Source: Amphirosellinia nigrospora (Eukaryota; Ascomycota; Sordariomycetes; Xylariales; Xylariaceae). Taken from it: DNA of 64,000 nucleotides. The notes under the pieces were generated by a model. It was not told the DNA's origin. It ran no database searches and saw only the letters and a program-made list of their open reading frames with translations. Position numbers and translations under genes: made by a program. Where the stretch lies: positions 558,001 to 622,000 of the forward strand of contig SCHM01000003.1 in the NCBI GenBank assembly GCA_004123355.1, read 5' to 3'. Shown here piece after piece: positions 331-63,107 of this stretch (its first letter is position 1; every line of letters begins with the position of its first letter).

Positions 331-2118
331 ATGGCTGGAGGTGTCGCTGTCACGGGCACGACCGATGTCTCGCGTGTCGAGGCACCCGTCACCATCAAGG
401 CCTACCTGATCTGCGCTTTTGCCGCCTTTGGTGGTATCTTTTTCGGTTATGATACCGGTAAGACTCGATTGAATTGATTGTTTCTCGCTGTATGCGAGAA
501 GTCGAGTTTCAACCACTGACTCTCTCATAGGTTGGATGGGTGGCGTGCTTGCCATGCCCTACTTTATCCAGCTCTACACGGGCTATTCTTACGATTTCGA
601 CACCAAGATGCCCATCGGTGTGACCAAGGACCAGTTCGTCATCCCCGCGTCCACCGCCTCTCTCTTCACATCGATTCTGTCTCTCGGTACATTCATTGGT
701 GCGCTCGTCGGTGGTGATATTTCCGACTTCGTCGGTCGTCGCCCTACCATCATTGGCGGTTGCATAGTCTTCGCTATTGGCTGCATTCTTGAAATTTCCA
801 GCACCAACCAGGAGGTCCTCTTCGTTTTCGGTCGTCTCATTGCCGGTGCTGGTGTCGGTTTCATCTCCGCTGTCGTCATTCTATACATGTCCGAGATTGC
901 ACCCAAGAAGGTCCGTGGTGCTATGGTTTCTGGTTATCAGTTCTGCATTACCATTGGTATTCTGCTGGCCAACGTTGTCGTTTATACGACTCAAGACCGC
1001 AATGACACTGGCTCTTACCGTATCCCCATCGGTGTGCAATTCCTCTGGGCCATCATTCTCGGAGGCGGTCTTCTCATTCTCCCCGAATCACCTCGTTTCT
1101 TCGTTCGCAAGGGCGAGATCGAAAAGGCTGCCAAGGCTCTTGCCTTTGTTCGTGGCCAGCCCGAAGATTCGGCCTACATCAAGGATGAACTTGCCGAGAT
1201 CGTCGCCAACAACGAGTTTGAACAGGCCAACATTCCCCAGATGAGCTACGTGCAGTCTTGGTTGGCCTGCCTCAAGGGCTCCCTCTCCAAGGGTGACAGC
1301 CCGATCCGCCGAACGATTCTGGGTGCCGGTCTTCAGTGCGCCCAACAGTTCACTGGTATCAACTTCATCTTCTACTTCGGACCCCCATTCTTCAAGCAGC
1401 TTGGAACCATCTCCAACCCCTTCCTCATCTCCCTCATCACCACCCTTGTCAACGTGCTGTCTACCCTATCTCGTTCTTTACTATTGAGAAGTTTGGCCGT
1501 CGTGCCATTCTGATCTGTGGTGGTATCGGTATGGTCGTCTGCCAGTTCATCATTGCCATCATTGGCGTGACTGCTGGCAAGGAGGTGCCCACCAACACCA
1601 GTGCTGTGTCGGCCATGATTGCCTTCATCTCCATCAACATTGCCTTCTTCGCTAGCACGTGGGGTCCCACTGCCTGGGTCGTGGTTGGTGAGATCTTCCC
1701 TCTTCCCATCCGTTCTCGTGGTGTCGGTATCTCGACCGCCTCCAATTGGTTCTGGAACACCATCATCGGTAAGTGACTGCGCATATCCTTTTGGCTTCAT
1801 AATAGTACCGCTCGCTAACGCCGAACAGCTGTCATCACACCCTTCCTCGTCGGTGCCGATAAGGCCAACCTGGGTGCCAAGGTGTTCTTCCTCTGGGGCT
1901 CCCTCTGCATCTTCAGCACTCTGTTTGCCTACTTCCTGGTTCCCGAACTCAAGGGCCTGTCGCTCGAGCAGGTCGATATGTGCATGGCCGCTACCACTCC
2001 TCGCCAATCCGCCAAGTGGAGACCCGACCACACCTTCGCCGCCGAGATGCACCACACTGGCGAGGATGCGCTCGCCGAGAAGCCTCTCGCGTCTTCGGCC
2101 GTGGAGGAGAAGGTCTAA
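331..2118 (+). CDS. MFS hexose/monosaccharide transporter
   Basis: A plasma-membrane sugar/proton symporter of the major facilitator superfamily (sugar porter family, 12 membrane segments). Three exons fit: 331-457, 531-1768 and 1829-2118, with clean GTAAG donors. Family signatures are visible: GGIFFGYDTG in TM1, GRRP in loop 2-3, PESPRFF before the central loop, the GINFIFYFGPPFF quinone-like stretch in TM7, and PELKG after TM12. Near 1464-1466 one C is missing from a CCCC run: STLSRSLL should read STPISFFTIEKFGRR. With it restored the protein is 551 aa, normal for the family. It resembles fungal high-affinity glucose transporters, but the substrate cannot be fixed from sequence. The start MAGGVAVTG gives the usual short cytosolic N-terminus. 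Confidence 0.93.
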
Positions 2119-3126
2119 GCACGAGCGGGACTGCTGTAGATTGTTTATCTCTCACATATAGAGGATGGGCTCGCGAGTGTCTTCACTATGCTTGGAGCAT
2201 ATGTCCGGATTCATAATGGTTGCTAACTATTCTCGTTCTCGAGCTCAATGTCATTAGACTATATATATATGTCGATTTATGATACCTCCAAGATATCCCG
2301 GGTTCTCTCATGTTGAGCGACCCACTCGTATAATAATAAAAAACTATTACGTGGTTTTCTACACCCTGGTTCTTTCGTATCGAAGCCGTACCCAGCCAGA
2401 GGTAGGGGCCGAAGTGAGATAGATGTCTTGTTGAGTTTCCGTGCGTAGGATTAGGTACGTAAGTCTACTTTATTTAGGTGCTTACGTACCTCAGGTAAGT
2501 ATCGTACCCGTTAAGACACTCCCTTTCCCTTATTCAGCATGGTTGGCGAAGACATGGCGCTGGCCGGAACCGACTGTAGGAGGCATACGCCACGCAGAAG
2601 AATCAGAATCAAGCCCCATAGGCCAGCAACAACCAACAACCCCACCAAGACATGTGCCCGCTTGCCGCTCGCCGCTCCTACCTTTTTGCCCGGGGAGACA
2701 CGAGGAACGATGGTGGAATGGTGCGTGGTGCGTGGTTACACGAGGGACGGCGCGTCCGTTCGGCCGACTTGTGTTTCTCGTGCGACCAGACCGGGCCCAG
2801 AAGGCCATTTAAGAAATTAAGAATACGTTGAGTCTCACCACCCGGACGCAAGGTGGGTGTTACTTGAGTAACAATTTCGTCACAGATGGCCGCGCGAGGC
2901 TTGTTGTCTACCACACGACACGCCAAGTGCAATGCAATCGACGCAAGGGAGAGTTGTGCTATCACCGCCTCTCCATAGTTCATTTGTATCGAGTCATCTA
3001 GAGGCCAGTGTCGAGATACAGGCTCGTCCTAGTGGAACTACAGCAACTGCCCGCTAATGCAGATAGCTACGAATTAGTATCTATCCCCGCTGTGTCGGAG
3101 AGCGAGATTATCTCGAACCTTACCCC

Positions 3127-3158
3127 CTCACTCACTCACTCACTCACTCACTCACTCA
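3127..3158. repeat. (CTCA)8 microsatellite
   Basis: Eight perfect CTCA units in intergenic DNA. Confidence 0.95.
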
Positions 3159-4747: not shown

Positions 4748-4770
4748 GCCACCTAATAAATTTAGGTGGC
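4748..4770. repeat. Short perfect inverted repeat (hairpin)
   Basis: Nine-base arms GCCACCTAA and TTAGGTGGC flank a 5-nt loop. It lies in AT-rich intergenic sequence away from any gene. A function is not evident. Confidence 0.7.
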
Positions 4771-5348
4771 TTTGGTAGTTACACGTAATCGTGGAAACTA
4801 AGGGTTCAGGGCATGTGGTCTATGTGAGCGAGTACATAATGAGCCATCATATTCTCTATAAAAGATCCGCTAGAGTTGCAGTAGACTTGGATTAAATTAC
4901 CCAACAAAACTCCTTCCAGATAGTGTCGTTTCGTCTTCGTTACGTTGTGCGCACCAGTAGGTTGCTCCCCCTCAAGTCAATCAGGCATCCCAGAGACCAA
5001 ACCCTCCCTTTTCGGATGGAATCGAAGAAGTGATCCAAAAAACCTAACATACAAAGTGGGTATATTCCAAAAATTCAAAAATCAACTTATATATCTCGTA
5101 AATAAATATGTCAGCCTCGGCGGCCATAAGCTGCCAAGTGGTGAAAGAATAGACAATAAACAATATCAACTAGTCGTTCGCGATATTTAGGCCCGACTGT
5201 GTTCGGATGCAGAACATATGCGTATTTGTACTGAAGCGAATTGGGTCAAGTCGACCCCCTATTTGCAAAGTCCCCACGTTCTTTGCGCTGTAAAGAGCAG
5301 AACGCCCACCGTCCCAGCTGGAGACACCCGTGATGGCCGCCTCTGACT

Positions 5349-7000
5349 TTAGAGTAGATAGACAGCGGCCACGAATGCTACAATGAGGCCAGCGACGGCA
5401 GCCCCGTCTTGACGCCGGCCGGCGTTCTCAGTCTTGCTCGAGTCGGTGGAGGAGGATTCACTCTCACTCGTACCCCCGCTGCTACTTCCACTCTCGCTCT
5501 CGCTCGTGCTCCCTGGAGAAAGAGCTGACACTGCTGTTGGAGTGTGCGAAGACAAACCCGCGCTGTAAGTTCCGTTTTGGTGATATACGGCTCCTAAGAA
5601 ATAGCTCGTACTACTCGAGGTTGACTCCACGGAATATGTTAATATGCTGCTCGTTGTACTTTCGCTGCTCGATGTCGTCGGCACGTATGCCGAGGACGTC
5701 GACGTAGGGATAGAAGTGGATGTGGTTGACGGCACAGATGACGTCGTGGGCGTGCTCGTTGTTGAGGGTATGCTTGTTGTTGTTGTTGTTGTAGGAGTTG
5801 GGGTTGGCGTCGGTGTGGATGTAGAAGTGGATGTCGGTTCGGGGCTTGAGGTGCTTGCGCTATTATCATCACCATCGCCCCCGTCAGATCCACTCGATCC
5901 ATCTAGATTGAAGACGACGATATTGGCTTTACCGCCTTTCGAGACGGTCACAACGCAAAAGTCGGAACCCCCGGCGCCGGTTGCCTTTTCATTGCTAACG
6001 ACGCCGGTGCCATCAATCTCACAAGGTAGGCCGTTGCAATTCCCGTCACATTCGATCTTAAGACCGAAAGTGGGCTTCGTGCTCGCCAGGCCGCTGTCCT
6101 GCCACACAGGATTTAACCCAAGCTTGACAAAGGTGTTGCCGGTGCCATCGGTATTGGCCCAGCGACATAAGGGGCCCAGTTGCCAATGGGCTTCGACTCA
6201 TCTCCCCAAATACAGCCCTCGTCAGAGCCAACGCCGGGTGCATTGATGTAAAAGCTACTACCATTAGCGGCCTTTCGCAGTAGAATAAATCGAAAACTCA
6301 CTGAGATGCTGTAGAATCCCAATACGAAGGGTCTGGCACAGCCAAGGTAGCAGTATCCTGAACGTCGGTGGGAATTATCATATCTTCGTAACCAGGTAGT
6401 ACTGTTTGGCAGAAGGAAACAACATCGCCGGCTTTATTTACGGCAGCAACCGTACCAGTGCCATCTACACACCACGGGCTGTCTTCAAAGGGGACCTGGA
6501 GCTCGCCATTGTTGCAGTAAATACCGCCATACTAATTACCGTCCACCGTTAATATGCGCATATGCCTGGGAGAGGGTTATACGAACAGTAGACTCCGGGA
6601 AGGTATAAGTAGTGTCCGGCTTCCATTGAGCCATGACTTGGCCGGAGGGGCAAGCAATGGGACACCAAGTGCCATCGACACATTCCTTATCAGGGGCCAA
6701 AGCCCAGCCGCCATTCATAGCACTCGGGGTCACAGCGAACAGCCCCTTTGACGTCGGAAATTCACATTTACTGCCCCCTCGAGCCTGCAGTTTCTCCGGC
6801 CGACGAAAGGCATAGCGGAAATTGACCGTGGCATTACCGAAGTGGTAATTATCCCTTTTAGCCGGGTGGTGGTGGTGTTGGTGGTGAAGTTCTCGATGTT
6901 GGTGTTGGTGGTGGTGGTGTTGAGCGCTGGCATAGCATGGTTGAGTCGCCAAGAGCAGCATAGCCGACCCTATGGTGGCTTGCAGCGTCGTGGTTTTCAT
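5349..7000 (-). CDS. SUN-family (GH132) secreted GPI-anchored wall protein
   Basis: Members of the SUN family (yeast SIM1/SUN4, Aspergillus Sun1, CAZy GH132) are wall glucan-modifying proteins. Exons fit at 7000-6587, 6531-6302 and 6257-5349. The start at 7000 gives a signal peptide (MKTTTLQATIGSAMLLLAT). A His-rich propeptide ending in a dibasic KR comes next, then the SUN domain with its C-x5-C-x3-C cluster (CVDGTWCPIAC), SFCQTVLPG, CIWGDESKPIGNWAPYVAG and NGLPC. A long Ser/Thr/Pro linker leads to a hydrophobic tail (AAVAGLIVAFVAAVYLL) typical of a GPI signal. One G is missing near 6156-6160, so the AGANTDGTGN stretch changes frame. Restoring it gives 517 aa. Intron 1 would use an unusual GTTCGT donor, and intron 2 is only 44 nt. 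Confidence 0.88.
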
Positions 7001-8900: not shown

Positions 8901-10476
8901 CTAGTTCGGGTAGCTACCATCGTACCAGGCACCACTCGTATATCCACTACCGAGAACGTCGGTCTGGCTAACAGCAGAGCTCAGCTTCTTCGACCACGAA
9001 ACACGAGTCCCGCTGGCACCCGAGCCCGAGTTGGAGTATTCAGCATAATAGATATTGCCAACGTCGGTATCGCCATTCCAATCGTGCCATCCGGCGCCAT
9101 TAATAACTATTGATAACAAGAGTTAGTCAATAAATTCACTTCTTCTTAAGACAGGTTACTCAACCGAATCGAAGAGTGTAGGGCTCCTATCTAAGGTAAA
9201 GCCGAAACAAGGGATTTTATGCCTGCAGTGGCTATGTGGGAAGAGACGCTTACCGGAACTCAATGATGTGCTCTGGAACACAACGCGCGAGTACGTTCGC
9301 CACGGCCGGCCTAGGTAGTACGAAGCACTCGATACAGACTCGCCCGAAGCGGCGGCGACATCGCAGTTATTAAACAGATAGTAAGAAGGATTGGAAGACG
9401 AATCGCGGCCGTTTGCTGTGGGCCAAAAATGCTCAGGTGTCGCTCATTTGCGTTTTGAGTTTATTCGAATGGGAATAGGGGTGATGAGCCCGGATGGGAA
9501 ATACTGACCTGTTATATAGTACCCGCCATTACGGACGCGGATATCGCAATCCTCGAACCATGCCTGAGCTTTCTGGCCAAAGATGAAGTCGGTGGCGCCA
9601 GTGATGAGGCAACCGCTGTAATACTGCTTGCCCTCGTTCGCTAGAAGTGTATCTTGAAAGCCATAGAGCTGGCAGCCGTAATACCCGCTGTCCGCTTGAG
9701 CGCTGAGGGCTATGGCCTGGCTGCCTTGGCCATCTATGCGTTCGATGTCCGGTTAATCTACTATACCCACCCGAGAGATGCCACGCCATGTATTGATTGC
9801 CATTTTTCTAGAGAGGCCGATACCGTTGAAAGAAAGAAAGGAAGGAAGAAAGAAAGGGGGATAGGGAGAGAGAGCTGGAGAAGGAAGGGGGGGGGGGGAA
9901 TAACGTACAAGAATTGACAATGTTCACATTCTTCAAAGTCAAGTGTTAGCAAGTTTTTTGTGACAGGTTCTAGGATGGAATAGTATCTCATGACTTTACT
10001 TACGTAGACTTTAACGTTGGCAGCATGGACTCTCAGCGTGCCAGACGCATCATTGCTCCCAGCGGTCGAAGCGGGCGAATTGTAGGTGATGATAGCCTTG
10101 TTATTCGTGTACGAGGTACTGTCGCTTGTATACCCGTAGATGGTGAGTTTAGCAGCGCGCGAGTCGATGTACTACGACACTCAGCGTCAGTTATCGTCTT
10201 GTTTCAGAAAGGAAACCTGGTGCTCTAGAAGTTGCTAAAAATAATAACAAAAATGTTTCCGGAGTTTACGCACAACCTGCTCAGTGTAGGTGCCCTGGTT
10301 GATGAAGACACACTGGTCGGTTGTTGAGGTCGTTGAGAGAGAGTCGATGGCTGACTGGACTGTCGTAAAAGAGCCGCCGCTCTTGGCAACGTGGAGGCAA
10401 CCCGAGGGGGGCTTGTGCGGCTGACGGCGAGGGCGAGCGATGCACTGTTCAGGAGCAAGGCGAGCAACTTCATCAT
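8901..10476 (-). CDS. Pectin methylesterase (pectinesterase, CE8)
   Basis: A secreted carbohydrate esterase family 8 enzyme that removes methyl groups from plant homogalacturonan. Six exons fit: 10476-10274, 10171-10004, 9930-9909 (22 nt), 9733-9509, 9415-9254 and 9106-8901. A signal peptide begins MMKLLALLL. All family motifs are present in order: GTYTEQV, SQAIALSAQ, GFQDTL, TDFIFG with the catalytic Asp, and LGRPW. One C is missing in the poly-C run near 10405-10411, just after the signal peptide; with it the exons total 987 nt, a 328-aa protein, the usual size. A second Met three bases inside is an equally possible start. This gene suggests a lifestyle in contact with plant material. Confidence 0.92.
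9824..9898. repeat. Near-homopurine tract with (GAAA)n and G12
   Basis: Inside a pectinesterase intron. GAAA/GGAA units from about 9827 are followed by GA-rich sequence and a run of 12 G at 9887-9898. On the coding strand this is a long pyrimidine tract close to the donor side of the intron. Confidence 0.85.
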
Positions 10477-13588: not shown

Positions 13589-15005
13589 TCAGACTTTCTC
13601 GATACGCTGTACAACCATGGCTGTTGCGGCCCCGCCGCCGTTGCAGATAGCAGCGACTCCGTATTCACCAGGCTTAAGTTGATGAAGTAATGTGGTCAGA
13701 ATCCGAGATCCCGAGCTGCCTAGAGCATGACCTAGGGATACGGCACCGCCTAGTGGATTCACTCGAGCAGTTTCCAGACCCAAAATCTGCCAGATGCTAT
13801 TAATTATCGTGTCCTAAACGCGGCGTTATAAGACGAGTGGAAACATACCTGTTCGTTGGCCAAGACGACAGCTGCAAATGCTTCATTGAATTCCCAAATA
13901 GCCACCTGGTCTTTGGTTATTCCAGCGCGTTCGAGCGCAAGAGGGACGGCTTTAGCTGGAGCTACAGGAAAGTCGATAGGGTTTACGGCAGCGTCTGCTG
14001 AACTGCATATTCGGGCTAATACCCTCGAACCCGACCCAAATTCTTGGGCAACTGACTTGTTGCCGAGCACCAAGGCGCTAGCGCCATCGTTGAGTGATGA
14101 TGCGTTAGCTGCTGTAATAGTGCCTGTCCCATCGCTATTAAATATTGGCTTGAGAGTCGGTACACGCTCTAGTTTGAAGTGCATATATCCCTCATCGGTA
14201 TCGACGATCACGTTCCCATTCCTGGTGAGGACAGTAACGGGCGCGATCTCTTCGGCGAAAACCTTGTCCTTCCAAGCAGCTTGCGCACGCTGGTATGATC
14301 GAATCGCGTATGCGTCTTGCATTTCGCGGGTAATGTTGTGTGTCTTAGCAGTCGATTCGGCGCACATTGCCATGTGAATTTTATCGTAGGCATCAGTGAG
14401 ACCATCTTTCAGTAGACCATCCTCCATCTTGCTGTGGCCGAAAGCGGGCAAACCACTTGCTCTGGGTATGTAATACGGGACTTGGGACATATTTTCCATG
14501 CCGCCAGCTATTTGCGCCTCACTCAGGCCGAGTTGGATATTCTGGGCTGCGAAGACGACCGCTTTCAAGCCAGAGGCGCAAACCTTGTTAATTGTAATAG
14601 CCTCGACGCTGCTGGGCAGCCCAGCGGCTATGGAGGCTTGTCTAGCTGGCGATTGGCCAACTGACGCCTGCAGCACATTTCCCATATAAACATCGGTAAT
14701 CTTGTCGACAGGTACTTTGGATTTCTCGAGGGCTGACTTTATGGCAATAGAGCCAAGTTTTGGTGCCGATACGGAGAGAAATGCGCCGTTGAAACTAATA
14801 GCGACGGGCTTGTTAACCCTGACATGACAAAAACAGCGACTGTTGTTCCGAGTGCTTACTTTACCGGTAGGTGTTCTAGAAGCACTCAAATATAAGCATC
14901 TTGAATCTCCTGTCGAAGTGCACTTTGCACCGAGAAATAACGAGCAAGAGTATGCCGAGGTCTGACATGCAAAGCGGCCCGGGAGAGCCTGGCTGTTTGC
15001 AACAT
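13589..15005 (-). CDS. erg10: Acetyl-CoA C-acetyltransferase, mitochondrial (thiolase)
   Basis: Condenses or cleaves acetoacetyl-CoA / two acetyl-CoA. Exons fit at 15005-14860, 14794-13849 and 13786-13589, giving 429 aa. The thiolase landmarks are all visible: nucleophilic Cys in [40 protein letters not shown] and the second catalytic Cys in [13 protein letters not shown]. Reading upstream of the [10 protein letters not shown]-like block reveals a start at 15005 with an Arg- and Ala-rich, acid-free leader ([18 protein letters not shown]...), a good mitochondrial presequence. Two single-base problems affect the 5' part: one T missing near 14889-14892 and one surplus T at the exon 2 border. It lies divergent from RAD6. 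The erg10 symbol follows the family; the mitochondrial paralogue is an inference from the leader. Confidence 0.88.
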
Positions 15006-15585: not shown

Positions 15586-16223
15586 ATGTCAACCGCCGCC
15601 CGTCGCCGTTTGATGCGAGACTTCAAGGTATGGCCAGCTACTTTAAGACATCGGTGATATTTCCGGCACTCTTGGCTAATGAGGCTTCACGTCTAGCGGA
15701 TGCAGACAGACCCTCCCGCCGGCGTCTCTGCATCCCCCGTGCCTGACAACGTTATGACCTGGTAAGGACAATGCTTCGAGCTCCAGCTACGCGCGATGGC
15801 CAGAGACTCACCTTTGCGTACAGGAATGCCGTCATTATCGGCCCTGCCGACACCCCGTTCGAGGATGGCACTTTTCGCCTGGTGATGCATTTCGAGGAAC
15901 AGTACCCGAAAAACCCCCGCTGTAAAGTTCATTAGTCAGATGTTCCACCCCAACGTATATGCCACCGGAGAGCTTTGCCTGGACATCCTGCAGAACCGAT
16001 GGAGTCCTACATACGACGTGGCTGCAGTCTTGACCAGCATACAAAGGTACATATAGCCGACGACAATATGCCGCGGGCGATACTGATTGCAGAGTTATAG
16101 TTTATTAAATGATCCAAACACGGGATCGCCGGCGAACGTCGAGGCTTCCAATCTCTATAAGGATACCGGAAAGAATATACCAAACGGGTACGCGAGACGG
16201 TGGAGAAGAGCTGGGAAGATTAA
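15586..16223 (+). CDS. rad6: Ubiquitin-conjugating enzyme E2 RAD6/UBC2
   Basis: The E2 that works with RAD18 (PCNA, post-replication repair) and BRE1 (histone H2B), called mus-8 in Neurospora. Four exons fit: 15586-15627, 15697-15761, 15824-16046 and 16101-16223. The start [17 protein letters not shown], the catalytic Cys in [18 protein letters not shown], and [16 protein letters not shown] are near-invariant RAD6 sequence. Three single bases are missing: an A and a C in the AAAAACCCCC run near 15908-15917, and an A in GATACCGG near 16162. The exons total 453 nt; with three bases back they give exactly 151 aa ending in SWED, the length of filamentous-fungal RAD6 lacking the yeast acidic tail. 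Losing RAD6 should be severely harmful, so these look like sequence errors. Confidence 0.95.
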
Positions 16224-17620: not shown

Positions 17621-20555
17621 ATGTCGAGCGCAAACAGCATCAAGGTCGTGGCCCGCTTTCGCCCACAGAACAAGATCGAACTCGAATCAGGCGGTGAACC
17701 TATCGTGAGCTTCGATGGCAACGACACCTGTAGCATCAACGTGCGCCTACCCCATCCTGTCCCCCGTCTCCCCGTCTCCCCCTCCCCGGTCCAACGCCCC
17801 CCGTCTTTGCTCGTTCCCTGACTGACTGACTCGTGCTATAGTCGGCCGAGGCCGCCGGTTCTTTCACCTTCGACCGTGTGTTTGATATGAAGGTGAAGCA
17901 GCACCAGATCTTTGATTATTCTATCAAGCCGACTGTGGATGACATCCTCAACGGATACAATGGCACTGTCTTCGCTTACGGCCAGACTGGTGCTGGAAAA
18001 TCTTACACCATGATGGGAACTAGCATAGAAGATGACAACGGCAAGGGAATCACGCCCCGTATCGTCGAACAGATATTCACCAGCATTCTGTCCAGTCCTC
18101 CCACCATCGAATACACCGTCCGAGTTAGCTATATGGAAATTTATATGGAGCGTATCCGTGACCTGCTGGCACCGCAAAACGACAACTTACCGTCCACGAG
18201 GAGAAGAACAGGGGGTGTATGTTAAAGGCCTTTTGGAAATCTATGTCTCGAGCGTGGAAGAGGTCTTTGAAGTTATGAACGGGGTGGCAACGCCCGTGCC
18301 GTCGCTGCAACCAACATGAACCAAGAGTCATCCCGCTCGCATTCCATCTTCGTCATCACCGTCACTCAGAAGAATCTCGAAACGGGATCGATGAAAAGTG
18401 GTCAGCTCTTCCTGGTCGATCTTGCCGGTAGTGAAAAGGTCGGCAAGACTGGCGCAAGTGGCCAGACGCTTGAGGAGGCAAAGAAGATCAATAAGAGCTT
18501 GAGCGCCCTCGGCATGGTTATCAACGCCCTCACAGATGGCAAATCTTCACATGTGCCCTACCGTGACTCCAAGTTAACCAGAATCTTGCAAGAATCATTG
18601 GGAGGCAACAGCAGAACTACCTTGATCATCAACTGCTCGCCGAGTAGTTACAATGATGCCGAGACGCTAAGCACGTTACGATTCGGTATGAGGGCCAAGT
18701 CGATCAAGAACAAAGCAAAGGTCAACGCCGAACTCAGCCCGGCAGAGCTCAAGGCCATGCTGGCAAAGGCCAAGTCCAACATCACAAACTTCGAAAATTA
18801 TATCGCAACACTGGAAGGCGAAGTGCAGCTTTGGCGTGCTGGCGAGTCGGTTCCGAAGGACCGGTGGGTGCCTCCACTGTCTGACGGCGTTCCTATCGCA
18901 AAGACCGATGCCAAAGGTGTGCGGCCATCTACACCGTCGAGGCTGATCCCGGAGAGCCGCTCAGAAACACCTGCCCTGACGGATCGCTCTGGCACTCCCA
19001 GTCTCCCCATGGATAAGGACGAGAGGGAAGAGTTTCTGCGTAGAGAAAACGAACTTCAGGATCAGCTAGCAGAGAGGGAGTCTGCTGTGGCAGCTGCTGA
19101 AAAGTCATTCCAGGAGTCTAAAGATGAATTGACATTCCTTAAGGAGCATGACAGCAAAGTTGGGAAGGAGAATGAGAGGCTAACGACAGAGGTGAACGAG
19201 GCCAAGATGCAACTCGAACGTTTAACATTTGAGAGCAAAGAGGCCCAGATCACTATGGATGCCCTAAAAGAAGCAAATTCCGAACTCACTTCCGAGATAG
19301 ACGACGTCAAGCAGCAACTCCTAGATGTGAAGATGAGTGCGAAGGAGACGAGTGCAGTTCTAGATGAGAAGGAAAGAAAAAAGGCCGAAAAGATGGCGAA
19401 AATGATGGCTGGTTTCGATTTGGGAAGCGACGTGTTTAGTGCTAATGAGCAAGCCATCGCCAAAGCCATAGAACAGGCCGAGGCTTTATACCAGCAAAGT
19501 TATGAGGGGAATCCCATACCCTCGGAGGATTTGCAGGAGCTTAAAGTAAAGCTTGTGGAGACGCAAGGTATCGTTCGGCAAGCCGAGCTCTCCCTCTATA
19601 GTGGTGTTTCCGGTGACGCCGAAGCACGTAGGCGGATAGAACTAGAGAGCCGTCTGGAAACTTTACAACAGGAATATGAGGATCTCCTCGCCCGCAATCT
19701 TGGAGATGCTGACATTGAAGAAGTCAAGGACCGGCTACAGAAGGCATATGCCAATAAGCAAACCACACAGATGGAACTGGTGGATGAGCTCAAGGCCGAT
19801 ATTGCTCAAAAGTCTTCCGAGAATGCCCGAATGAAGACTCTGATCGAAGAATTACAATCTCGCATCAAGTCGGGGACTGTGGCGGCGCCTGGTCTCGCCA
19901 ATGGCAAGACTATCCAACAGCAAATTGCCGAGTTCGACGTTATGAAGAAGAGTCTGATGCGAGACCTACAAAACCGCTGCGAACGCGTCGTTGAGCTCGA
20001 AATTTCTCTAGATGAAACCCGAGAACAGTACAATAATGTTTTGCGATCATCAAACAATCGCGCGCAACAGAAGAAGATGGCGTTCCTTGAGCGCAATCTT
20101 GAGCAGCTAACTCAAGTCCAGCGCCAGCTCGTCGAGCAAAACAGCAGTCTCAAGAAGGAAGTGGCTATCGCCGAGAGGAAACTCATTGCGAGGAATGAAC
20201 GCATCTCGAGCCTGGAATCCTTGTTGCAAGACAGCCAAGACAAATTGGTTGCGGCGAATCATCGGTTTGTTACCCTTATAGCTCGAGGGAACTGACGCAT
20301 GCTAACAAATACTATAGCTTTGACACTCAACTCACAGCCGTTAAGGAGCGCTTGGAAGCAGCCAAGGCAGGCTCCACCCGTGGCTTAAATATGGCATCTG
20401 GCGCCGGTGGCTTCAGCTTTGCCAATGCCGGCAGCCGTATCGCGAAACCGCTTCGAGGAGGCGGCGGCGACGCGCCTGCTCAAGTCCCTACGATCGCAAA
20501 TCTCCAGAACGAAGGCAATGCGGGTAAGAGAAGCAGTTGGTTTTTCCAGAAATAA
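17621..20555 (+). CDS. Kinesin-1 heavy chain (conventional kinesin)
   Basis: The plus-end microtubule motor that carries vesicles to hyphal tips (NKIN/kin-1 type). Exons fit at 17621-17740, 17842-20264 and 20318-20555. The motor domain has the P-loop GQTGAGKS at about residues 87-94, switch [10 protein letters not shown], switch [12 protein letters not shown] and [13 protein letters not shown] hinge and long coiled coils follow, and the tail holds the autoinhibitory IAK motif ([11 protein letters not shown]). Three G residues are missing from short G runs at about 18191, 18211-18215 and 18281-18284, all within the motor. Restoring them gives [22 protein letters not shown], broken otherwise, and 927 aa, matching the Neurospora protein length. 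A homologue pseudogene is very unlikely given this exact fit. Confidence 0.95.
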
Positions 20556-32900: not shown

Positions 32901-32995
32901 TAGTTCACCTGCGAGGCAAGAATCCATAGATCTAGAATCTCTATCATTAAATTGCAGTTATAAAGATGTTATTACCTCCTGTCTCTTCTATCCCT

Positions 32996-41689: not shown

Positions 41690-44600
41690 TCAGGTATAAT
41701 GCGCCATATCAAATTTAGCACAAGTCTCCCCGTCACGATCCAAGTTCCTGTAACGACTCAGAAGCACTAACGATAAGATGTTCTCAAGCTTGCGCCGGAA
41801 CCAGGTCTTAGTCTCAAGCCTTGGGATCGGTTCTGGGGGTTGTGCAAAGTCCTCCTTAAGAAATTGTCGGGTGACTGCCTCGGCTCTCCTTAAATTTCGT
41901 ACGTCATCCTCTGATAGTTTTGAGCATACAACTTCCAAATCTTCGTGATGCGCCATTTGAAGTATGATTGATTCGCCCTTTTTACGATTGCCTGGTCAAC
42001 CCCGTTCATTGCAGCACAACGACTGCGCTAGAGATGCTTTTGCCGGGTGCAAGCTGGTACAAATGTCACCTGGTCCTCCATTGTTGGAGCGTCGAGGTGT
42101 ATGTGGATTTCCATGTGGGCAAACACTAACTCGTCACTTTCTGTGAGAAACGGTTGTCCAGGATCTCATGGAAGTGGGTTGCAACTAGGACCTTCGGCCG
42201 TTCACGGTCGAGGCCAGCGAAATGATTAATGGCAGCAGTTACCAGGCCTGCGCCATCTTGGCTGTTTGTCCCTTTCCCAAATTCGTCAATGATAATCAAA
42301 CTTCGTCGGGTTGCGAAGTTCATAGTAAACGCGACTTGGCGTAAGTCGGTAGCAAATGCGCTCTCGGAGCGAGCCACGCTTTCTCGCGTTGCAATCCGTG
42401 TTAAGATGCGATCTGTTAGGCCTATTTGAGCATAGTCTGCTGGTACGAAGCACCCAATGTGCGCCAGATAGACAATAATTGCAACCTGTTTAAGATATAC
42501 ACTCTTTCCAGAATGATTAGGGCCCGTAATAATGATTGTACTTGGCGATTTTAGAGAGCCATCAGCCACCTCGAAAGTTGAAGTGTCCTCATGTTCGTGC
42601 ATGTGCTCGCCCGTTCCTCCAGCCATGAAGCAGTCATTGGGAATGAAAGATGGCGTGACTAGTTCTTGTAAAATGTGACGGCCACCTTCGATGTGTATAA
42701 TATTTGTGTTGGTCATCTTGGGTGCTGTCCACTTGTTTTGACCGCAGAAAGTGGCCAGGGCGAGCAGACTATCAAGTTCACCAAGCACATCTGATGCTGC
42801 TAATATTGCTGCTTCTCGATCGAGGATTGTGACCGCGAGCTGGTGGGTAATTTCTATCTCCCGATCTGCAAGAAATAAGCTTATGGGAAAAACAGCTTCC
42901 ACAGTGTACGTACCTATGATCATGCAATATGGGTCACCAAGTTCCTCGTCCATCTCCTTCATCCGCCTGTTTTTATAGTAGGCATATCCATCCACAATAA
43001 ACATGCAGTCCCATGTATCATGCAATCCTTCTCCATCGTAATTGCCTTTACCAGTCTGTGAGTTGACTGATACTGTAGTCAAAAACCCGAGTTGGGGGAG
43101 GAAAATGCAGGCTTGTACATACTTCCTGGCCCATTCCGGAATGCCACTCCGTAGTTTAGCATTCACGTTAGCAAGCAAATGTTCCATGCCATCGTAGATT
43201 CTCTTACGTTCATCCAAATCAGCGTCAATGCCTTGTTTTACGGCTGTTCTGCCTCGATCCACGGACTGGTCGAAGTCAATTGTTTCGGTAATCAGTTCTC
43301 CAATTTGACGAATCTGGAACAGGTCGACAACTTGGATTACCTTACAAGTTTTATATTAGTGAGACACCTTGAGAAATAGGTCGCCAGCAACTACCTTTTT
43401 CACTATGTCTACCTTCTCTGCATCTGGCAGTGTTTGAAGTGATTCTCTTAACCGTAGGCTGTAAGCAGCAAACTTTTGGAGAACGGCCCAAACACTGTTT
43501 ACCACAGATATCTTTCGGCCAAGGCTATCGATCCCTTTTCGTAAAAGTAATACGATGGATTTCATGTCTTTAATTTTCCTTAGATCTTTGCTGATGCTAC
43601 ACAGCGCATCGGCGTTACCGGGGCGAAGAAAAAAAGCGATTGTCCATTGTCTCTCACGAATGACGTCGATATCAATGCTTGGTTGCAAGAACATACGACG
43701 CAGTTTTAATCTGCCCTGAGGCGTGACGGCTAGGTGAGAGAAGAGACCGTAGAGCGAGAGACCCTCTTTCGCGCCTGACGTAGAGCCTGTAGGGCCACGC
43801 TGAAGACTATTGGGATGGTACTCCGGTTGCATAATCTGCAATGAAACGAGGGTGTCGGCATTGATAAACATCGAGTTGAATAAAGAAAACATTTCCACAG
43901 ACCGGACTCTAAATGCGACTAGAGCATCAGGATCGTTTGGTAGATACTGCGTCGTTCTCCTGCGCTGAATGTCATTTAGCACTGCACCGGCGCAGCCAAT
44001 CTGGATATTGTTAGACTTGAATTTCAAGACACACGGCTGAAAGGGTCCTAACAGTGAGGCGGCTGTCTAGATTGATATATGTCGCCAACCGCATGAGTTG
44101 CCCCTGCCTAGATTCTCGGGTCTGGGAATCATCATCCTCGAGCACAGCATCATCCACAACTGTGGTATATATCATGCTCTGTGGACCATTCATTCCCAGA
44201 TGAAGGTCGAGTAATCTGTTTCTGCCTGTTTCATAACGAAAGTCTGTCGAATTCAAATTTCTTAGGATATAAGCGCCTGGGAAATCCCCTAGAGGGAGTT
44301 TAGCGTTCGCACAATGACGATGGCTTAGAACGATACCTTACCCCGACTACCGTTGACGTCTTGTGAGCCCTTGTAAGGAATTGAGACAGAGACTCGGGCG
44401 CCCTCGCAGATATGAGTACCGAGGTAGGCTGCACGTGAAGAAGTAAAGTCTCAACAAGGTCGATACCGGCCATTGCCACATCTTCAAGCAGGTACAGAGC
44501 TTCTTCCAGAACAACATAGTACGCACATCCTAGAGTAGAGCCTCGAGGGCCACGGTCTCTCATATCAATCGCCATGATAATTTCATTCATTGCATCAGCG

Positions 44601-44976
44601 CTCTCGTCCTCGAGAGCCTTATTGTCCTGTCCGCTCGACTCAAACCCATAGTTCCGGCCCACAGCCGGTGGAAGCCCAGGAGGTGAACATGATGAGTATG
44701 TTGGCCCATGGGCCCGTGTAAGAAACAAGGGCGAAGACTCACGAATTGGCGTATCAGAACGACGGCCGACAGTGTTTGTAGCCCCGACAAATGACTAACA
44801 GGGCGCGCTTGGTGGAAACCTTGCCCGTGTCTGGATATGACTGAGGAGGGACGACGTTCTGTGGGATACGGTGTTTGTGATCGTGACACCATTCTTCTTC
44901 CAACTCTCCGGAAAGAAGTAGATGTGGCAGAGGACGACCTAAGGGAGGCCTGCGAATCTCGCGGATAGGATGCCAT
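41690..44976 (-). CDS. msh5: MutS homologue MSH5 (meiotic crossover factor)
   Basis: MSH5 pairs with MSH4 as a sliding clamp that stabilises meiotic crossover intermediates; it has no mismatch-recognition domain. The C-terminal ATPase has Walker A GPNHSGKSVYLKQVA, IGCFVPADYAQIGLTDRILTRI, the MSH5-typical TRESVARSESAF, Walker B IIIDEFGKGTNSQDGAG and VLVATHFHEI. Upstream are IIMAIDMRDRG, the core domain (AVTPQGRLKLRRMFLQP) and the clamp helices, spread over several exons. At least four single bases are missing at the 3' end alone (between about 41950 and 42150), where the frame otherwise changes repeatedly. MSH4 was considered and rejected on the Walker and TRES motifs. The start at 44976 (MASYPRDSQ) is tentative; 45003 is the alternative. 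Exon borders are approximate. Confidence 0.9.
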
Positions 44977-46671: not shown

Positions 46672-47495
46672 ATGCCTCGTGTAAGTCTCCAAGCTCGTCG
46701 TGAACACGAAACCACCGTCAAACATCTAGATTACTTACTTACAATTGACTCTATGTAGGTCAAGTATATCCTGCTCGACTGTGACAACACCCTCTGCTTG
46801 TCAGAGCGTCTGGCTTTCGAGGCCTGCACCGACTTGACCAACGAGGTCCTTGGAAAATGGGGCAAGTCCGACCGCTACACTGTTGATCAGCTTCTTGAGG
46901 ACTTCGTCGGCCACAATTTCCGTGGCATGCTCGTTGGCCTCCAGAAGAAGCATGGTTTCACAATGACCCCCGAGGAGGTTGATGCTTATGTCGACCGTGA
47001 GCTTGGTGCCGTCACTGCGAAGCTGAGCGAGAAGTGCACATCATGCCCTGGTGTGCCTGAGCAGCTCGAGGCCCTCAAGCAGCAAGGTTACCCCATGTCC
47101 GTTGTCAGTACATCTGCCAAACCCCGTGTCGTCGCCTCTCTGAAGAAGACTGGCATCGACAAATACTTCCCAGACGAGCATGTCTACAGCGCCGCCACCA
47201 GTTTGACCCCTCCATCAAGCAAGCCTGACCCTGCTATCTACAACTACGCCTGCCAGCAGTTGGGAGTGAAGAACTCCGAGTGCGTTACCGTTGAAGACAG
47301 CAAGAGTGGTGCTACCGCTGCTATGCGTGCTGGCATCCCTCTTATCGGTTATGTCGGTGTCTATGGCATCGAGGAGGGACCGGAGAAGATGGAGCAGATG
47401 GCCAAGCTTCTCAAGGAGCAGTGCAACGCCAACGTCATCATGTACGACTGGAAGGAGTTCCCGAGTGCCTGAAGAAGATCGAGGAGGGTTTGTAA
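46672..47495 (+). CDS. HAD-superfamily phosphatase-like hydrolase
   Basis: A haloacid-dehalogenase-fold hydrolase, probably a small-molecule phosphatase or phosphoglucomutase-like enzyme; substrate unknown. Exon 1 is only nine bases (46672-46680, Met-Pro-Arg) and exon 2 runs 46759-47495. The four HAD motifs are in order: LLDCDNTLC (Asp10 and Asp12), VVSTSAKPR, the Lys of SSKPDPAIY, and VEDSKSGATAA. An all-helical cap sits between motifs I and II. One G is missing at about 47462; with it the end reads WKEFPECLKKIEEGL and the protein is 248 aa. Without the tiny first exon there would be no start codon before motif I. Confidence 0.9.
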
Positions 47496-50695: not shown

Positions 50696-51045
50696 ATTAT
50701 ATCGTATACCAATCACACCCAGCATAAAAAACGGGGTGCATAATTGGCGATTTTGGGGGGAGGGGGGGGAATCGGATAGGTTTGGTTGGATGAGCGACGC
50801 GTTTATTTATATGTTTATTCGGCAGGAAGAGGATAAAGAGTAATGTTACAAGTCCAAGTCTGCATGATAAATGCCTTGGGTTCTTGGAGACGAGGATGGT
50901 TAGGTTGTATAAAGCATGTCAGCCGAGACGGAGCTAATAATGCGAGCTTAATTGGCCACTATTTGAATTCCTCATTCGTGTGGTCAAACTTCTGATGGTG
51001 ATTCATTCATCCTAATCATGTGGCATTGAACTAAATTTCCGTCTA
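50696..51045. other. Converging 3' flanks
   Basis: The 3' flank of the Cys-rich protein gene and of MDE1. A G-run (GGGGGGAGGGGGGG) lies at about 50755-50768. Nothing else is seen. Confidence 0.5.
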
Positions 51046-53454: not shown

Positions 53455-55391
53455 ATGCACCTAAACTCAGCCGTGGCCGCTGCCTTACTGGCAAGCGGTG
53501 CTCAGGCACATGGCTTCCACGGAAACCCTCACGGTTTCCCTGGCCAAGATCACGTCCCAGGTGCCGCCGCCCCAAGCAGTGCTACTGTCTCCTACACTAT
53601 GCCTGCTGAGCTCCCTACGTTTACCGTGAGTCCATTCACCCCCAGCTCCTCGGCCTATTGTATAGCAGAGAACGTCGCTCTTGCTAACTCCCTGTCTCTC
53701 TTCGCAGCCTTCTACCATCAAAGCCCCGTTCCTTGAGCAGTTCACCGGTGGATGGGACTCGCGATGGAAAGCCTCGCACGCCAAAAAGGACACCGCGGGC
53801 TCAGAGGAGGAGTGGGCCTACGTTGGTGAATGGGCGGTCGAGGAGCCTTACATCTACAATGGGCAGGTCGGCAGCAAGAACCTCGTCGCCAAAACGCTGC
53901 CGCCCACCACGCCATCTCGGCAAAGTTCCCTAAGAAGATCGACCCCAAGGGCAAGACCCTCGTCGTACAGTACGAAGTCAAGCTACAGAGTACGTTCCCC
54001 TATGTCCCAAACTCAACGCTCTGCTACATATGCTGATACCTCTATTCAGAGGGCCTTGAATGCGGTGGTGCATACATGAAGCTCTTGCGTGACACCAAGG
54101 CGCTTCACCAGGAGGAGTTCAGCAACGCTTCTCCTTATGTCATCATGTTTGGTCCCGACAAGTGCGGCCACACCAACAAGGTTCACTTCATCTTTAACCA
54201 CAAGAACCCAAGACGGGTGAATACGAAGAGAAGCACCTTTCCGCCCCCCTCAGGCCGATATTGACAAGGTCTCGCACCTCTACACTCTGATCGTCCAACC
54301 CAACAACACCTTTACCATCCAGAAAGATGGTGATACTGTCCGTGAGGGCAGCCTTCTAGACCAATTCGCGCCGTCTGTCAACCCTGAGAAGGAGATTGAC
54401 GATCCTAAGGACACCAAACCCGAGGATTGGGTAGACGACGCCCGTATCCCTGATCCTGAGGCCAAGAAGCCTGAAGACTGGGATGAAGATGCGCCATTCG
54501 AGATTGTCGATGAGGAAGCCACGAAGCCTGAGGATTGGCTTGAGAATGAGCCCTCAACTGTCCCTGACCCAGAGGCCCAGAAGCCCGAGGACTGGGATGA
54601 CGAAGAGGATGGTGACTGGGTTGCCCCTATTGTACCCAACCCCAAGTGCGCCGAGGTCTCTGGCTGTGGTCCCTGGACTAAGCCCATGATCAAAAACCCT
54701 GATTACAAGGGACCTTGGACTGCACCGTACATCGACAACCCTGCCTACAAAGGTGTCTGGGCTCCTCGCAAGATCGCCAACCCTGACTACTTTGAGGACA
54801 AGACTCCTGCTAACTTCGAGCCTATGGGTGCTGTAAGTTGACTTATCTAGCTTCATCGAAGGTGCGTGTCACTAACTTAAGAACTAGATTGGATTTGAGC
54901 TTTGGACTATGCAAGCCGATGTTTCGTTCGACAACATTTACATTGGTCACTCCGTTGATGACGCCAAGAAGCTGGCCGATGAGACTTTCTTCCTGAAGTT
55001 CCCCGTCGAGAAGGCTCTTGAGCAAGGCAGAGAAGCCCAAGGAGTCCGCTAAGCCCAAGTCCCATCTGATTTGAAGTTCTTGGATGATCCCGTTACCTAC
55101 ATCAAGGAGAAGCTCGACCTTTTCTTGACCCTTGCCGCCAAGGACCCTATTGAGGCGATCAAGTTTGTCCCTGAGGTTCCCACTGCTATCGGTGGGCTTC
55201 TCGTCACTCTCATCGCTCTCGCTGGTATCCTTACTTCTGGAGGCAGCGCCCCTGAGCCTGTCAAGAAGGCTGCCGCTGATGTGAAGGAGAAGGCTAAAGT
55301 TGCCAAGGACAAGGCTGCGGAGGCCATCTCTACCGGTGCTGAGAATGTGAAGGCAGAGGCCAACAAGCGGGCCACCCGGGGCTCGTCGTAA
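53455..55391 (+). CDS. cnx1: Calnexin, ER lectin chaperone
   Basis: A type I ER membrane protein that binds monoglucosylated glycoproteins during folding. Exons fit at 53455-53625, 53708-53989, 54050-54832 and 54888-55391. A signal peptide is followed by the lectin domain ([29 protein letters not shown] with its Cys pair, [10 protein letters not shown]), the P-domain with repeated KPEDW units and the [13 protein letters not shown] / [13 protein letters not shown] repeats, then [22 protein letters not shown] single membrane span ([15 protein letters not shown]) and a Lys/Ala-rich tail close it. Five single-base problems occur: A missing near 53893, C missing near 54209 and 54246, a surplus G near 55026 and C missing near 55059. 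Corrected, it is 580 aa. Confidence 0.93.
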
Positions 55392-56499: not shown

Positions 56500-59371
56500 T
56501 CAACATCCTGTAGCCCGCGCCACAGCTTCTCCCCTCCTCGACGACCTCATGCACACCTCGAGGCACTTGCCTGCCTCGCGCACCTCAGCAGCGTCGAGCC
56601 AGAGCCGGCCCTCGCCCGCCACCTTCTCCATCTCGCAGCGGAGGAGCCAGCGCTCCCACGCCCAGCCACCGGCAAGCCCAGCGATGCCGGCGGCACCCTC
56701 GGTCGACCCCTGTAGAATGGCCTTGACTTCGAGGGACCTGTCGACGCCGTTGCTGTCGCGCACGACTGGCAGTGGCTTCTCTCCGGCCGGAAGCTTAGTG
56801 TGGCCCATCGGGAGACACATCCAAGCGCGGCGGACCTCTTCAAAGCCGGCTCGGCCCAGGCGCCCAAGGAAGAGACGGGTGGGGCTCGGGTCGTAACCTA
56901 GAGTCTTGAGCGAGAAACCGAACTCGACCGACTTAGCGAGACCGAGCGGGCCCGCATTCATGATATCTGAGTCGATTACTGAAAAGTCGAGGTAGCCGCC
57001 GGGTTTTAACACTCGCATCACCTCGGTCAGACAGCCCTCCCACTCATCCGTGCCATTTTCTCCAATAAATTTGATGATGGAATGAAGCTCACGCGCCGAC
57101 ACGAGATCAAAGTGCGCATCGGGGAAGGGTAGTTTCGTAAGGCGTTCAACAGCGACCTGTCGGTGGTTGGGGGGGCCCCGGATATTGCAATTGGACAGTT
57201 GACGGATCGCCTTGGTGGTCACTGAGTAGACCTTTGTGTTGGGGTATGCGATGGCACAGTGCCAGGCCCATTCACATGTCGCCTGGCCACCCAGATCGAG
57301 AATGCGCGTGCGGTCTTGCGCGCCACCGATGCGAGAGAGCCTCGCCAGCTGCTTAGCGATGGGGGCGGAGAAGAGTTTCCCACCGTTCAGAGCCTTGGTT
57401 GCACTTACGTGCCAGTTGGCTGTGGCCATTTGAGCTAACGCTTCGTCCTCCTTTTCGCGCTTGAGTCTCTCTGGGTCATCTACGATAACATCGTCACCAC
57501 GAACAACATTGGCGCTCATGCGCTTTTTAGCTGACTGTGGCACCACTGATAGTTGATACTTGCCAAGGAGCTGGTTGCGATGCGCCTCGCGTAAAGAAAC
57601 CCGTTGCGCCTGGAGAGCTTCAAAACGGGGGAGTCGGTGAACAAAGGTGTCCTGTGGGCGAGATCGAATGATATAGTCCTGGAAAGCTCGGTAATATGCG
57701 GATTCCTTGCGAGCAAATGCAGATGGAAGAGTTCGCGGAATGTTTGTCCTGAATGGCAAATTCTGAAAATCGAACGGCCTTCTTCTTTTGCGTGATCGGT
57801 GACTCGTCGACTTCTGTCTCCTTTTCCTTGGTTTCATCCTCTATATGGATTTCGAGGGTCTGTGACTCTGACTCGGAATTTGACTGTGCTTCTTCCTCAA
57901 CATGGACGCCTTGGAGGTAGACCTTCTGAGCCATAAGCCAAAGTTCCGTGCGGTCTAGGTTTGAGAGAGCCACTGCCTGCTGTTTCTTTGCATACTCAGG
58001 GTCGTACACTGTTACAATCTCCGTGGCTACTAAATCCTCGCTTGGGGACATCGGGTCGACTGCGGCAGTGGGTGACGTAAGTGGGCTTCTCTGTTCAACC
58101 CGTCGTGCAGTTAGAGGGTCCTCCGGAAAAGTGTGCCTGGATTCTACGACCTGCTCGATTATAATGGGCCTGGCGGTGGGCATGCCATCCGACATAGTAC
58201 CCCTGATTTCGACAACATGCTCGACTGGCGCTGAAGAGGCAAGCCATGGTAAACGATAAAACTGCTCAGCAGTAGTCGATGTGGGCGGGACAATGTCTTC
58301 AGGGGCGACGGAAGGCAGATGCCACGTGTGTCTTGCTCGCGGTGAAAGCCCAGAAAAGAAACCTCCTGGAGATGGTATTTCGAGACTTGGCAAGCCAGGT
58401 TGCTGTAGCCCAGTTGCTAGCCTCAATAATGGCCTAGGACCAGTAGTAAACAGTTGGCGACTTTGTTGTGTCATTTCGGGGACCCTATCTTCTGGAACTT
58501 CAATCACCTGCTCAGACTGATATTCATCATCGGTATCCTCGCTTCCGGATAAGGCTTGTAGCGTTTCTAGGGCAGCCGGTTGTAGTTGAACACCAGACCA
58601 GTCTCCCAGAGGAACCTCATCGCCTAATGCCATAACTGGCGTTACCGGTGCAGACATAGCAGCCATCTGATCAGACGTGAAGCTGCCATCTAAAGAAGGC
58701 GGTGCTGAGATTGTGGGCACTACTTGAGCTTGCTGGGATTGTAGGTAAGAAATCACTGCTGGGGACATCTCAACCTTTGCGGGCGGTGTCGGAGGTATCG
58801 GCGAGGTGAACTTCCTGAGATTTGATCTTGCAGACCAGTTTTCCGGATTAGGGTCTCGCTGAGTCGGGATGACTAAGGGTGGCAGGCCACGATGAGATGC
58901 CGAAGACATGGTTCTCGAGTGCTTCATGGGAGCAGCGCGTGAGCTACCATGGCGCCTCTGCAACGACGAAGTAGTTGTCATCTTTGGTCGGGTCTCTTCG
59001 TCATCTGATACATCGTATATATCGTCAAACTCTGTGACATCAGTACTAACACTCGTCCGGTTCCACGGATTCGAGGATGATGACGGTGAATTGCTCTCGT
59101 CAAAAGACGCGGTCGAGGGAGAGTCAGGTAGTATCGGTGCCGACATGTAGTGAAAGCCACGCGGGGTCGGGAAGTCGTCAATACGCGGCGACAGCCATTG
59201 TACTATCTTATCATTTGACTGGCGAGCCTGAATCCTGCGTTGGCCCTGGGAAGCCCGCTTACGTTGTGAATCCTCAGGCTCTTCCATTATGGTATTAAGT
59301 GGCCTTCGAGCCAGCGAAGGTGACGGGGGTTGTTGGTAGGTGGTCGACGGTAAGAAAACTAATTCAGACAT
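56500..59371 (-). CDS. Large SAM-dependent methyltransferase domain protein
   Basis: About 957 aa: a long low-complexity N-terminal half (Ser/Pro/Glu-rich, beginning MSELVFLPSTTYQQPP) followed by a class I methyltransferase domain. Domain signs are motif I RILDLGGQATCEWAWHCA, the acidic position in VYSVTTKAIR, FDLVSARELHSIIKF and the post-motif VMRVLKPGGYLDFSVID. This arrangement is a known fungal family without an established substrate; LaeA-type function should not be assumed. The two halves lie in different frames; the switch is near 57735-57765, between KKAVRFSEF and ARKESAYYRAFQDY, and needs one extra or two missing bases. The Met at 59371 is chosen; the frame stays open upstream but lacks an ATG. 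Confidence 0.82.
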
Positions 59372-60900: not shown

Positions 60901-61748
60901 ATGGCAGATACCGAGCAGCCAGAAGTTCCGAGTGAACCTCAAAGTCGCCATATCACTTATTGCGGCGGTACGTCCAACGCATTTCTGCTACGCGACCTAC
61001 ATTATAGGTGGAAAACCATTTGCTAATAAACAACATTTGGGCAGTGTGTACGCTACCCCCAGAGGTACAGGGTTCTTCTTACTATCATACGAGCCTAGTG
61101 ACCGGATTCTATAGTCGACCAGACGCGCCACCGAACAAGAGAGGCTAATCCTACCCGAACAGTACTGCGAATATGGCGGCACCGTCAAGAAATGCCAGGA
61201 CTGGCTACAGAAAGCACATCCTGCCATGTATGAGCATATATGGTCTCCTGGTACGTGGGCTTCTCTTCCCACTACACTATGGTCGTTGAGCCATAATTAC
61301 GGTACCGACACTTGCTGATGAGCCGACCGTGTGTTACAGAAGCCCTAGAAGCCGCCACAGCATCATTATCCGTCGAGGCCCAGAAGCGAGCCGCCAAAGA
61401 CGCCCAGAAGAAGGCCGCCCAGGCCGAGAAGGCCGAGCAGAAGCAGGCCGACAAGATGGCCAACAGCGTCGTCACGATAAAACGCGTCGAGAGGAATAAG
61501 AGGAAGTACGTCACCGCCGTATCGGGCTTGGAGGCTTTCGGCCTCGAGCTGAAGAAGGTCGCCAAAGAGTTTGGCAAGAAGTTTGCTACTGGCTCTTCGG
61601 TGACCAAGGTGCCCAGCGGCGGCGAGGAGATTGTGGTCCAGGGCGATGTGAGCGACGAGATTGAGGAGTTCCTGCTTGAGAAGTACAAGGAATACCAGAG
61701 GACAACATTGAGTTAGTGGATGACAAGAAGAAGAAATCGTCGTCATAG
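60901..61748 (+). CDS. tma22: Translation machinery-associated protein 22 (DENR family)
   Basis: The DENR orthologue; with Tma20/MCT-1 it recycles 40S subunits and assists re-initiation. Exons fit at 60901-60967, 61045-61064 (20 nt), 61163-61250 and 61340-61748. The N-terminus has the Cys-rich zinc-binding part (YCGVCTLPPEYCEYGG, KKC) and the HPAMYEHIW block. A Lys/Ala/Gln linker leads to the SUI1/eIF1-like domain (VTIKRVERNKRKYVTAVSG, FGKKFATGSSV, IVVQGDVSDEIEEFL). One A is missing near 61691; restoring it turns EYQRTTLS-stop into EIPEDNIELVDDKKKK and gives 194 aa, the expected length and end. All introns have GTACG/GTACA donors. Confidence 0.93.
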
Positions 61749-61928
61749 TGTTCCAGCTCGGCATGGTCACGCTGAGAGCATCAAAGATATTCGAGGGTTG
61801 GATAAACATTAATTCCCGATACCCGAGCCAATACGATGCGCTGTTAGTTTACCCGGAGCCCTGTGACCACCTCTAAGCGCCATACGCCAGTTCCTGTCCA
61901 TGTATAAATACAGTTTGCCGTTTATCCT

Positions 61929-63107
61929 CTAGGCCCGTTTCCTCAGTATCCTCCCTGTCCTCGGTGCCGTTGCTGTTGTTGCCGGCGCTGCTTTTGTAGC
62001 AGGGGCTTTCTTGGTTGTGGCTGATTTGATTGTGTTCATGACTGTCCTTTTCGCGGCAGGCGGCGCCTTTGTGGTTCTCGATGTAGCCGCCGTCTTCTTA
62101 ACCACAGTCGTCGTGCTTCCCTCACTCGATTCGCTGGTCACGCTAACTTTGCGTCTGCCCCGGGTGGTGGCAGTAGATGGCGGGGGTGCTGCGGCTTTGC
62201 GCGTTCGGCCGGTCGCTGTGGTTGCTGTGGTCGCCGTGTTAGAACTTGCCGTCGAGGAAGTGGTGGTTTTTCTCGTAACAGCCGCAGGTCGTGTGGCTTT
62301 CGCCCTCTCTACTATGCTCGAAATAATATTCGAAGAAGTCTTACTCGTCGAGGTTTTCATTGGTGACATAGGCCGGCCGACCAGAGATTTTGTGGGTGAC
62401 ACTGGCCGGTCTCTAGGCAGAACGCGTGTGTTGGAGGATGTTGGGGATAGCACCTGTGATGCCGCGATAGGCGCCTTTCCTGGGAGGGGCACGGCCCGTA
62501 ACCTCTTCTTGGGATTGTCTATATCGCCGTGGTTTTCTTTATCCGCACCGGAAATCTCGTTACTACACCTTGTTAGCCTGTATGCGGAAATTTCACGCTG
62601 CAAGCCGCACCTCAACCGCTTGTGCCCGCGAGCCTGGCTGGCCGCGGGCAATGGTTTCCGGGGATGGGTTTGGGCTTGGGCTTAGGCGACGTTCCGTCCT
62701 TTGGCGGCACGGGTGGAGGCTTGGAAACGTACTGAGACCTGGGTGCGTGCCGAGGATACTGTGGTTGATAGGACCTCGTAGGGAGTTCGCGCATCTTGAG
62801 CTTTCGTAATGTTGTTGGTATGCGGTTGACGCGCATCTCTACGCGTGACCGCAGTTGTTGTGCTTGGATATTGTACTGAGCCCTTAGCCGTCGCGCGCGT
62901 TCGGTGACTGTTTTCCATTGTTAAATGCCACTCCGTGGGGACAACTACTGCTAAATGACACGTACTCTCGAGTTGGAGGTTATCAATCAATGCTTGCTTC
63001 TGAGCAAGCGTGACGCCTAACTTGCGCCTCTTGATGGGACTCCTCTGCGGCGACGACGTGCTTGGCGACGATTCGGACTTGCGTTTTCGTGATCGTACGG
63101 GTGCCAT
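61929..63107 (-). CDS. nbl1: Borealin/Nbl1-like chromosomal passenger complex protein
   Basis: Borealin-type proteins hold INCENP and survivin (Bir1) together in the Aurora B complex. Exons fit at 63107-62966, 62907-62617 and 62568-61929, giving 357 aa. After a basic N-terminus (MAPVRSRKRKSE, SPIKRRK) comes the diagnostic helix: LAQKQALIDNLQLE, ITERARRLRAQYNIQAQQL and SRVEMRVNRIPTTLRKLKM. The second half is disordered and rich in Ser/Thr/Ala/Lys, with SGADKENHGD, repeated SPTKS/SPMKT sites that could be Cdk or Aurora targets, and TGRILRKRA at the end. One C is missing near 62660 in PIPGNHCP, which should read PIPRKPLPAAS. Yeast Nbl1 has only the helix, so the long tail is the filamentous-fungal form. 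Confidence 0.82.

Follow-up and report, generated by a model that had tools for sequence, protein, structure and literature searches.

Conserved genes of the window (the whole 64,000-nucleotide stretch of DNA that was analysed, contig C5:558001-622000) and of other parts of the genome change reading frame where no intron can be accommodated. We attribute these breaks, with high confidence, to base losses in a near-chromosome-scale assembly that was built from error-prone long reads with incomplete correction or none. The losses themselves, their spread over the genome, their mostly one-base size, their bias towards deletion and their presence in RNA genes were all demonstrated here, and we infer both that long reads were used and that the missing bases would be found in accurate reads. 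An uncorrected long-read consensus is indicated by the fact that single-base losses occur at many sites, in RNA genes and in genes of essential families, with sister copies in the same genome that retain the base. The original prediction of an unpolished long-read assembly is supported by losses that occur genome-wide, in families with essential members and in untranslated tRNA and 5S genes. The broken genes are almost certainly a data-quality problem rather than a biological phenomenon; the artefact is of an ordinary kind and involves no new biology.

Frame breaks in conserved genes of the window

The genome, whose gene content marks it as fungal, amounts to 48.1 Mb in 11 contigs, the largest seen being 13.8 Mb, and the window has a GC content of approximately 50%. 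Parts of the window were translated frame by frame, with an X at each stop, and submitted to a Pfam scan or to matching against PDB entries. On the plus strand between 2400 and 15580 and between 40190 and 45000, and on the minus strand between 15100 and 25300 and between 45000 and 54800, the Pfam scan was restricted to single open frames. For neighbouring fragments of a given gene, we defined the offset as the DNA distance minus the profile distance. Gene ends are approximate where they were taken from a rough codon-model gene finder, as for the sugar transporter.

The sugar transporter gene (331..2118, plus strand; Pfam Sugar_tr) changes frame around positions 1465-1471. Profile positions 16-306 end at 1471 and positions 305-449 start at 1465 in another frame, an overlap of 7 nt with an offset of -1. 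A similar situation is found in the gene of a ubiquitin-conjugating (E2) enzyme, which we take to be of the RAD6 type, as proposed earlier (15825..16050, plus strand). Its UQ_con positions 31-61 end at 15917, and positions 60-107 start at 15910 in a second frame, with an offset of -2. The DNA is two bases short at 15910-15917; three lost bases had been proposed for this gene. In the calnexin gene (53729..54838, plus strand), whose product has calnexins as its best PDB matches, successive pieces correspond to positions 1-56, 55-89, 87-151 and 148-352 of the Calreticulin profile. A frame change at 53890-53896 leaves the DNA one base short (offset -1), and another at 54227-54240 leaves it two bases short (offset -2); between these two breaks, an intron-sized junction separates the second piece from the third. 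Of the five losses announced for calnexin, at least three missing bases were observed, which confirms base loss in this gene but not the full number. No intron is possible at the sugar transporter, E2 and calnexin breaks, because the adjoining matches leave no gap in the profile and overlap in the DNA by 7-14 bases.

The motor domain of kinesin-1 (17842..18700, plus strand) uses three frames in turn around 18190-18284. Residues 42 to ~158 of 1goj_A, presumably a fungal kinesin, are found in the frame of position 17842. The match then moves to the frame of 18203 for residues 163-188, which lie two bases early, and to that of 18271 for residues 188-328, which lie three bases early. The DNA coding for residues 42-188 is three bases short. 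The Pfam Kinesin match (positions 36-327) reads through two in-frame stops in this gene. Altogether, the claim that conserved genes shift frame inside their domains holds for the sugar transporter, the RAD6-type E2, kinesin-1 and calnexin genes, with one to three bases missing in each.

The more general statement that 20 of 21 genes are affected could not be reproduced by our tests, which covered part of the genes, since the thiolase, HAD hydrolase and methyltransferase domains were found without a break. In the thiolase gene (13600..14796, minus strand, ends approximate), the frame-by-frame Pfam analysis revealed no base loss. The matches correspond to Thiolase_N positions 13-259 and Thiolase_C positions 2-61 and 60-123, and the sole junction, from 13846 to 13789, is intron-sized with an offset of 62. 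The HAD hydrolase (46759..47472, plus strand) has its domain intact in one frame (HAD_2 positions 1-177 of 178), as does the methyltransferase (56503..57840, minus strand; Methyltransf_11 positions 31-93 of 95). The MutS-family protein, identified as MSH5 in the original prediction, which proposed at least four losses in it (42126..44794, minus strand), harbours MutS_III and MutS_V in one frame; this is the only one of its three frames that matched, the search of the other two against solved structures having yielded no match. The junctions between the listed pieces of the choline kinase and SUN-family genes are intron-sized, and only partial pieces were matched for GNAT, TMA22 and borealin. 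Of note, the SUN-family gene and a pectinesterase gene are located on the minus strand, at approximately 6301-6775 and 9524-9728.

A gene finder that relies on codon usage instead of references, and that includes frameshift states, was also applied to the window, using clean Escherichia coli K-12 DNA for comparison (approximately 20-21 kb of predicted coding DNA in the window versus 36-37 kb in E. coli). At a frameshift penalty of -6, it called 15 losses and 6 gains in the window, versus 8 and 7 in E. coli when introns were allowed and 12 and 14 when they were not. The corresponding numbers at a penalty of -8 are 6 and 3 in the window, versus 5 and 4 or 7 and 8, and at -10 they are 4 and 0, versus 5 and 2 or 5 and 6. 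Given similar counts of frame changes in clean DNA, the approach was rejected as a test of the 20-of-21 claim; as the codon model cannot tell errors from noise, it was used for approximate gene ends only.

Coding junctions across the genome

Seven conserved families were searched genome-wide, namely Cpn60/TCP-1, HSP70, kinesin, sugar transporters, E2 enzymes, the actin family and ATP synthase. Because these searches scored the best candidates only (e.g., the best 9 of 272 for sugar transporters), the count for every family is a lower bound. Altogether, 60,963 bp were covered at 76 gene places, where neighbouring fragments on the same strand formed 59 junctions. Junctions that change frame with an offset between -8 and +8 were classified as leaving no room for an intron. 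They represent 20 of the 59 and are found at 15 places; one is that of the E2 gene described above, and the other 19 are outside the window. Ten of the 20 are on contig C1, and C4, C5, C6, C7 and C8 have two each. One-base indels are therefore spread over the whole genome, on six contigs, rather than restricted to one locus.

The offset of these no-intron junctions is -1 in 14 cases and -2 in three, with single instances of -4, +5 and +8; none of the 20 has an offset of +1. In 17 of them, the frame shifts in the way that loss of one base would produce. The weak member of the class is an actin-family junction on C6, with a gap of 35 nt and the offset of +8. Intron-sized junctions form a group apart (17 of 59), ranging from 38 to 152 nt, with 13 of the 17 between 52 and 74 nt. 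As for the remaining junctions, 13 with wide fragment overlaps or with fragments far apart in the profile were set aside, five fall between the no-intron and intron-sized groups, and four are in the same frame. At 61 of the 76 gene places, many of which are partial, no no-intron junction was present. The loss rate is at least ~1 per 3 kb of matched coding DNA in the seven families, a lower bound because clusters of losses such as that of kinesin are bridged by one continuous match.

We also determined the longest homopolymer run near 11 coding junctions, including a TCP-1 junction on the minus strand of C4 that belongs to the five between-group cases. These runs are two to five bases long and involve all four letters. 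Their mean length is 3.27, a value reached in 6.7% of 5000 random draws, versus 2.87 by chance.

Untranslated RNA genes and the origin of the losses

Genes whose products are not translated are affected as well. We found 58 tRNA genes and took 51 of them; 38 have a near-identical sister and constitute the basis of the count. Compared with these sisters, one base is missing in 4 of the 38: the losses shorten G4 to G3 in a tRNA-Ala gene, G2 to G1 in a tRNA-Asn gene and G3 to G2 in a tRNA-Thr gene, and a tRNA-Glu gene lacks one T outside a run. Two tRNA-Asn genes (L097:101-173 and 1255-1328) have four G residues in the 3' acceptor stem versus five in L046. This difference, present in two of three genes and left out of the count, is possibly a further base loss. 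In addition, two tRNA-Ser genes with the anticodon GCT face each other within approximately 250 bases (L087:137-389), and their 3' halves differ.

The 5S genes (L002-L031 and L105) are dispersed over many contigs. From 33 copies found, 31 were aligned; 14 of the latter were excluded because of divergence or more extensive damage, some of them probably being relics, and 17 are near-identical. Bases are missing in eight of these 17 copies: a run is one base shorter in nine instances, distributed over three sites (C5, G4 and C3), and there is one two-base loss. The C5-to-C4 difference is common to six copies and is therefore possibly a real variant.

These data bear on the other explanations that could be offered for the breaks. 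In one of them, the mutations are real and the window corresponds to a segment that has decayed or been duplicated and is filled with pseudogenes. In favour of this view, the frame breaks are present in the sequence, and numerous substitutions clearly set some 5S copies apart. However, 19 no-intron breaks are located beyond the window, and the breaks are distributed over six contigs and affect families that include essential genes (HSP70, TCP-1, actin), as well as kinesin genes, rather than being confined to dispensable ones. Moreover, the protein is nearly intact on either side of the breaks, the kinesin remaining close to 1goj_A in all three frames. Decay of one segment is thus excluded by the spread of the breaks over the genome, and we consider genuine pseudogenes a very improbable origin.

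Programmed or tolerant frameshifting by ribosome slippage, with a correct genome sequence, would be consistent with breaks in translated conserved genes, 17 of 20 of which go in one direction. However, tRNA and 5S genes lose bases too, and the 11 junctions share neither a run length nor a letter that might serve as a common slip signal. Because untranslated RNA genes are also affected, translational recoding is excluded as the cause, and the likelihood left to it is negligible. An insertional RNA editing process that restores, in messenger, transfer and ribosomal RNAs, bases truly absent from nuclear DNA would account for losses in protein-coding and RNA genes alike, and most losses are of one base, but sister tRNA and 5S copies of the same genome have those bases in their DNA. 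To our knowledge, no nuclear insertional RNA editing system of this kind exists, and we regard editing as only remotely conceivable.

In the favoured explanation of an uncorrected long-read consensus, single bases would be dropped from coding, tRNA and 5S genes alike, at the above rate of approximately one per 3 kb of matched coding DNA or higher. As every lost base shifts the reading frame, conserved genes look broken; the organism's own genes would be intact, and only their consensus copies would appear damaged. Gene models, pseudogene counts, claims of gene loss and selection tests based on the uncorrected assembly would be erroneous in numerous genes, and other 'frameshift' or 'broken gene' findings in the same genome should be discounted.

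There are published precedents for such artefacts. Of 305 conserved single-exon genes in a nanopore-only assembly of Drechmeria coniospora, less than one sixth were reported to be full length before polishing, and short-read polishing recovered all 305 (PMC7500977). As in the present case, this is a chromosome-scale fungal assembly in which small indels, described there as mostly in homopolymers, break conserved genes. The D. coniospora errors were proven with Illumina reads, whereas ours were judged from the assembly sequence alone, and long-read polishing is reported to have added more insertions than deletions there, whereas nearly all events here are losses (PMC7500977). The description of Kastor similarly indicates that genes in long-read assemblies are split by small indels, most of which are linked to homopolymers, with an example in which 23.3% of genes were counted as pseudogenes before correction; unlike ours, these assemblies are bacterial, and detection relied on reference genomes and raw reads (PMC12007338).

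Run lengths and ribosomal DNA

The losses had been proposed to occur almost always in runs of two or more identical bases. Run shortening is supported by the RNA genes, in which six of the seven single-base loss sites are in runs of at least two bases and five in runs of at least three, compared with 43.7% and 14.9%, respectively, of the bases of the window; the six sites within runs all consist of G or C. The coding junctions add little to this, in view of the proportion of random draws that reach their mean run length. For breaks located through protein matches, finding two or more identical bases in a row is hardly informative, because any stretch of at least 13 bases nearly always contains such a run.

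Run-length spectra of the window and of a 239-kb sample (72 loci, a few of which overlap) were compared with an order-2 Markov model. No general truncation of A/T runs was found in either set. Long runs are kept, with A/T runs of up to 16 bases in the sample and T14 and G12 in the window; a base caller that caps all runs does not fit the untruncated long A/T runs. C runs of at least six bases are below expectation in the sample (14 versus ~29), and G runs are not (22 versus ~23). With C runs depleted, G runs not and A/T runs untruncated, the spectrum was dropped as a diagnostic.

Three rDNA copies compared over 1200 bp have no substitution, and they differ by a G run that has three lengths and by one four-base difference. 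The ITS region of this genome appears to resemble those of Xylariales. Contig C10 starts within rDNA, and the 5.8S matches listed on it, from the best 39 of 1190 candidates scored, are at positions 104-257, 43832-43985 and 58339-58492. Their spacing is uneven, and the C10 array may be collapsed or misassembled.
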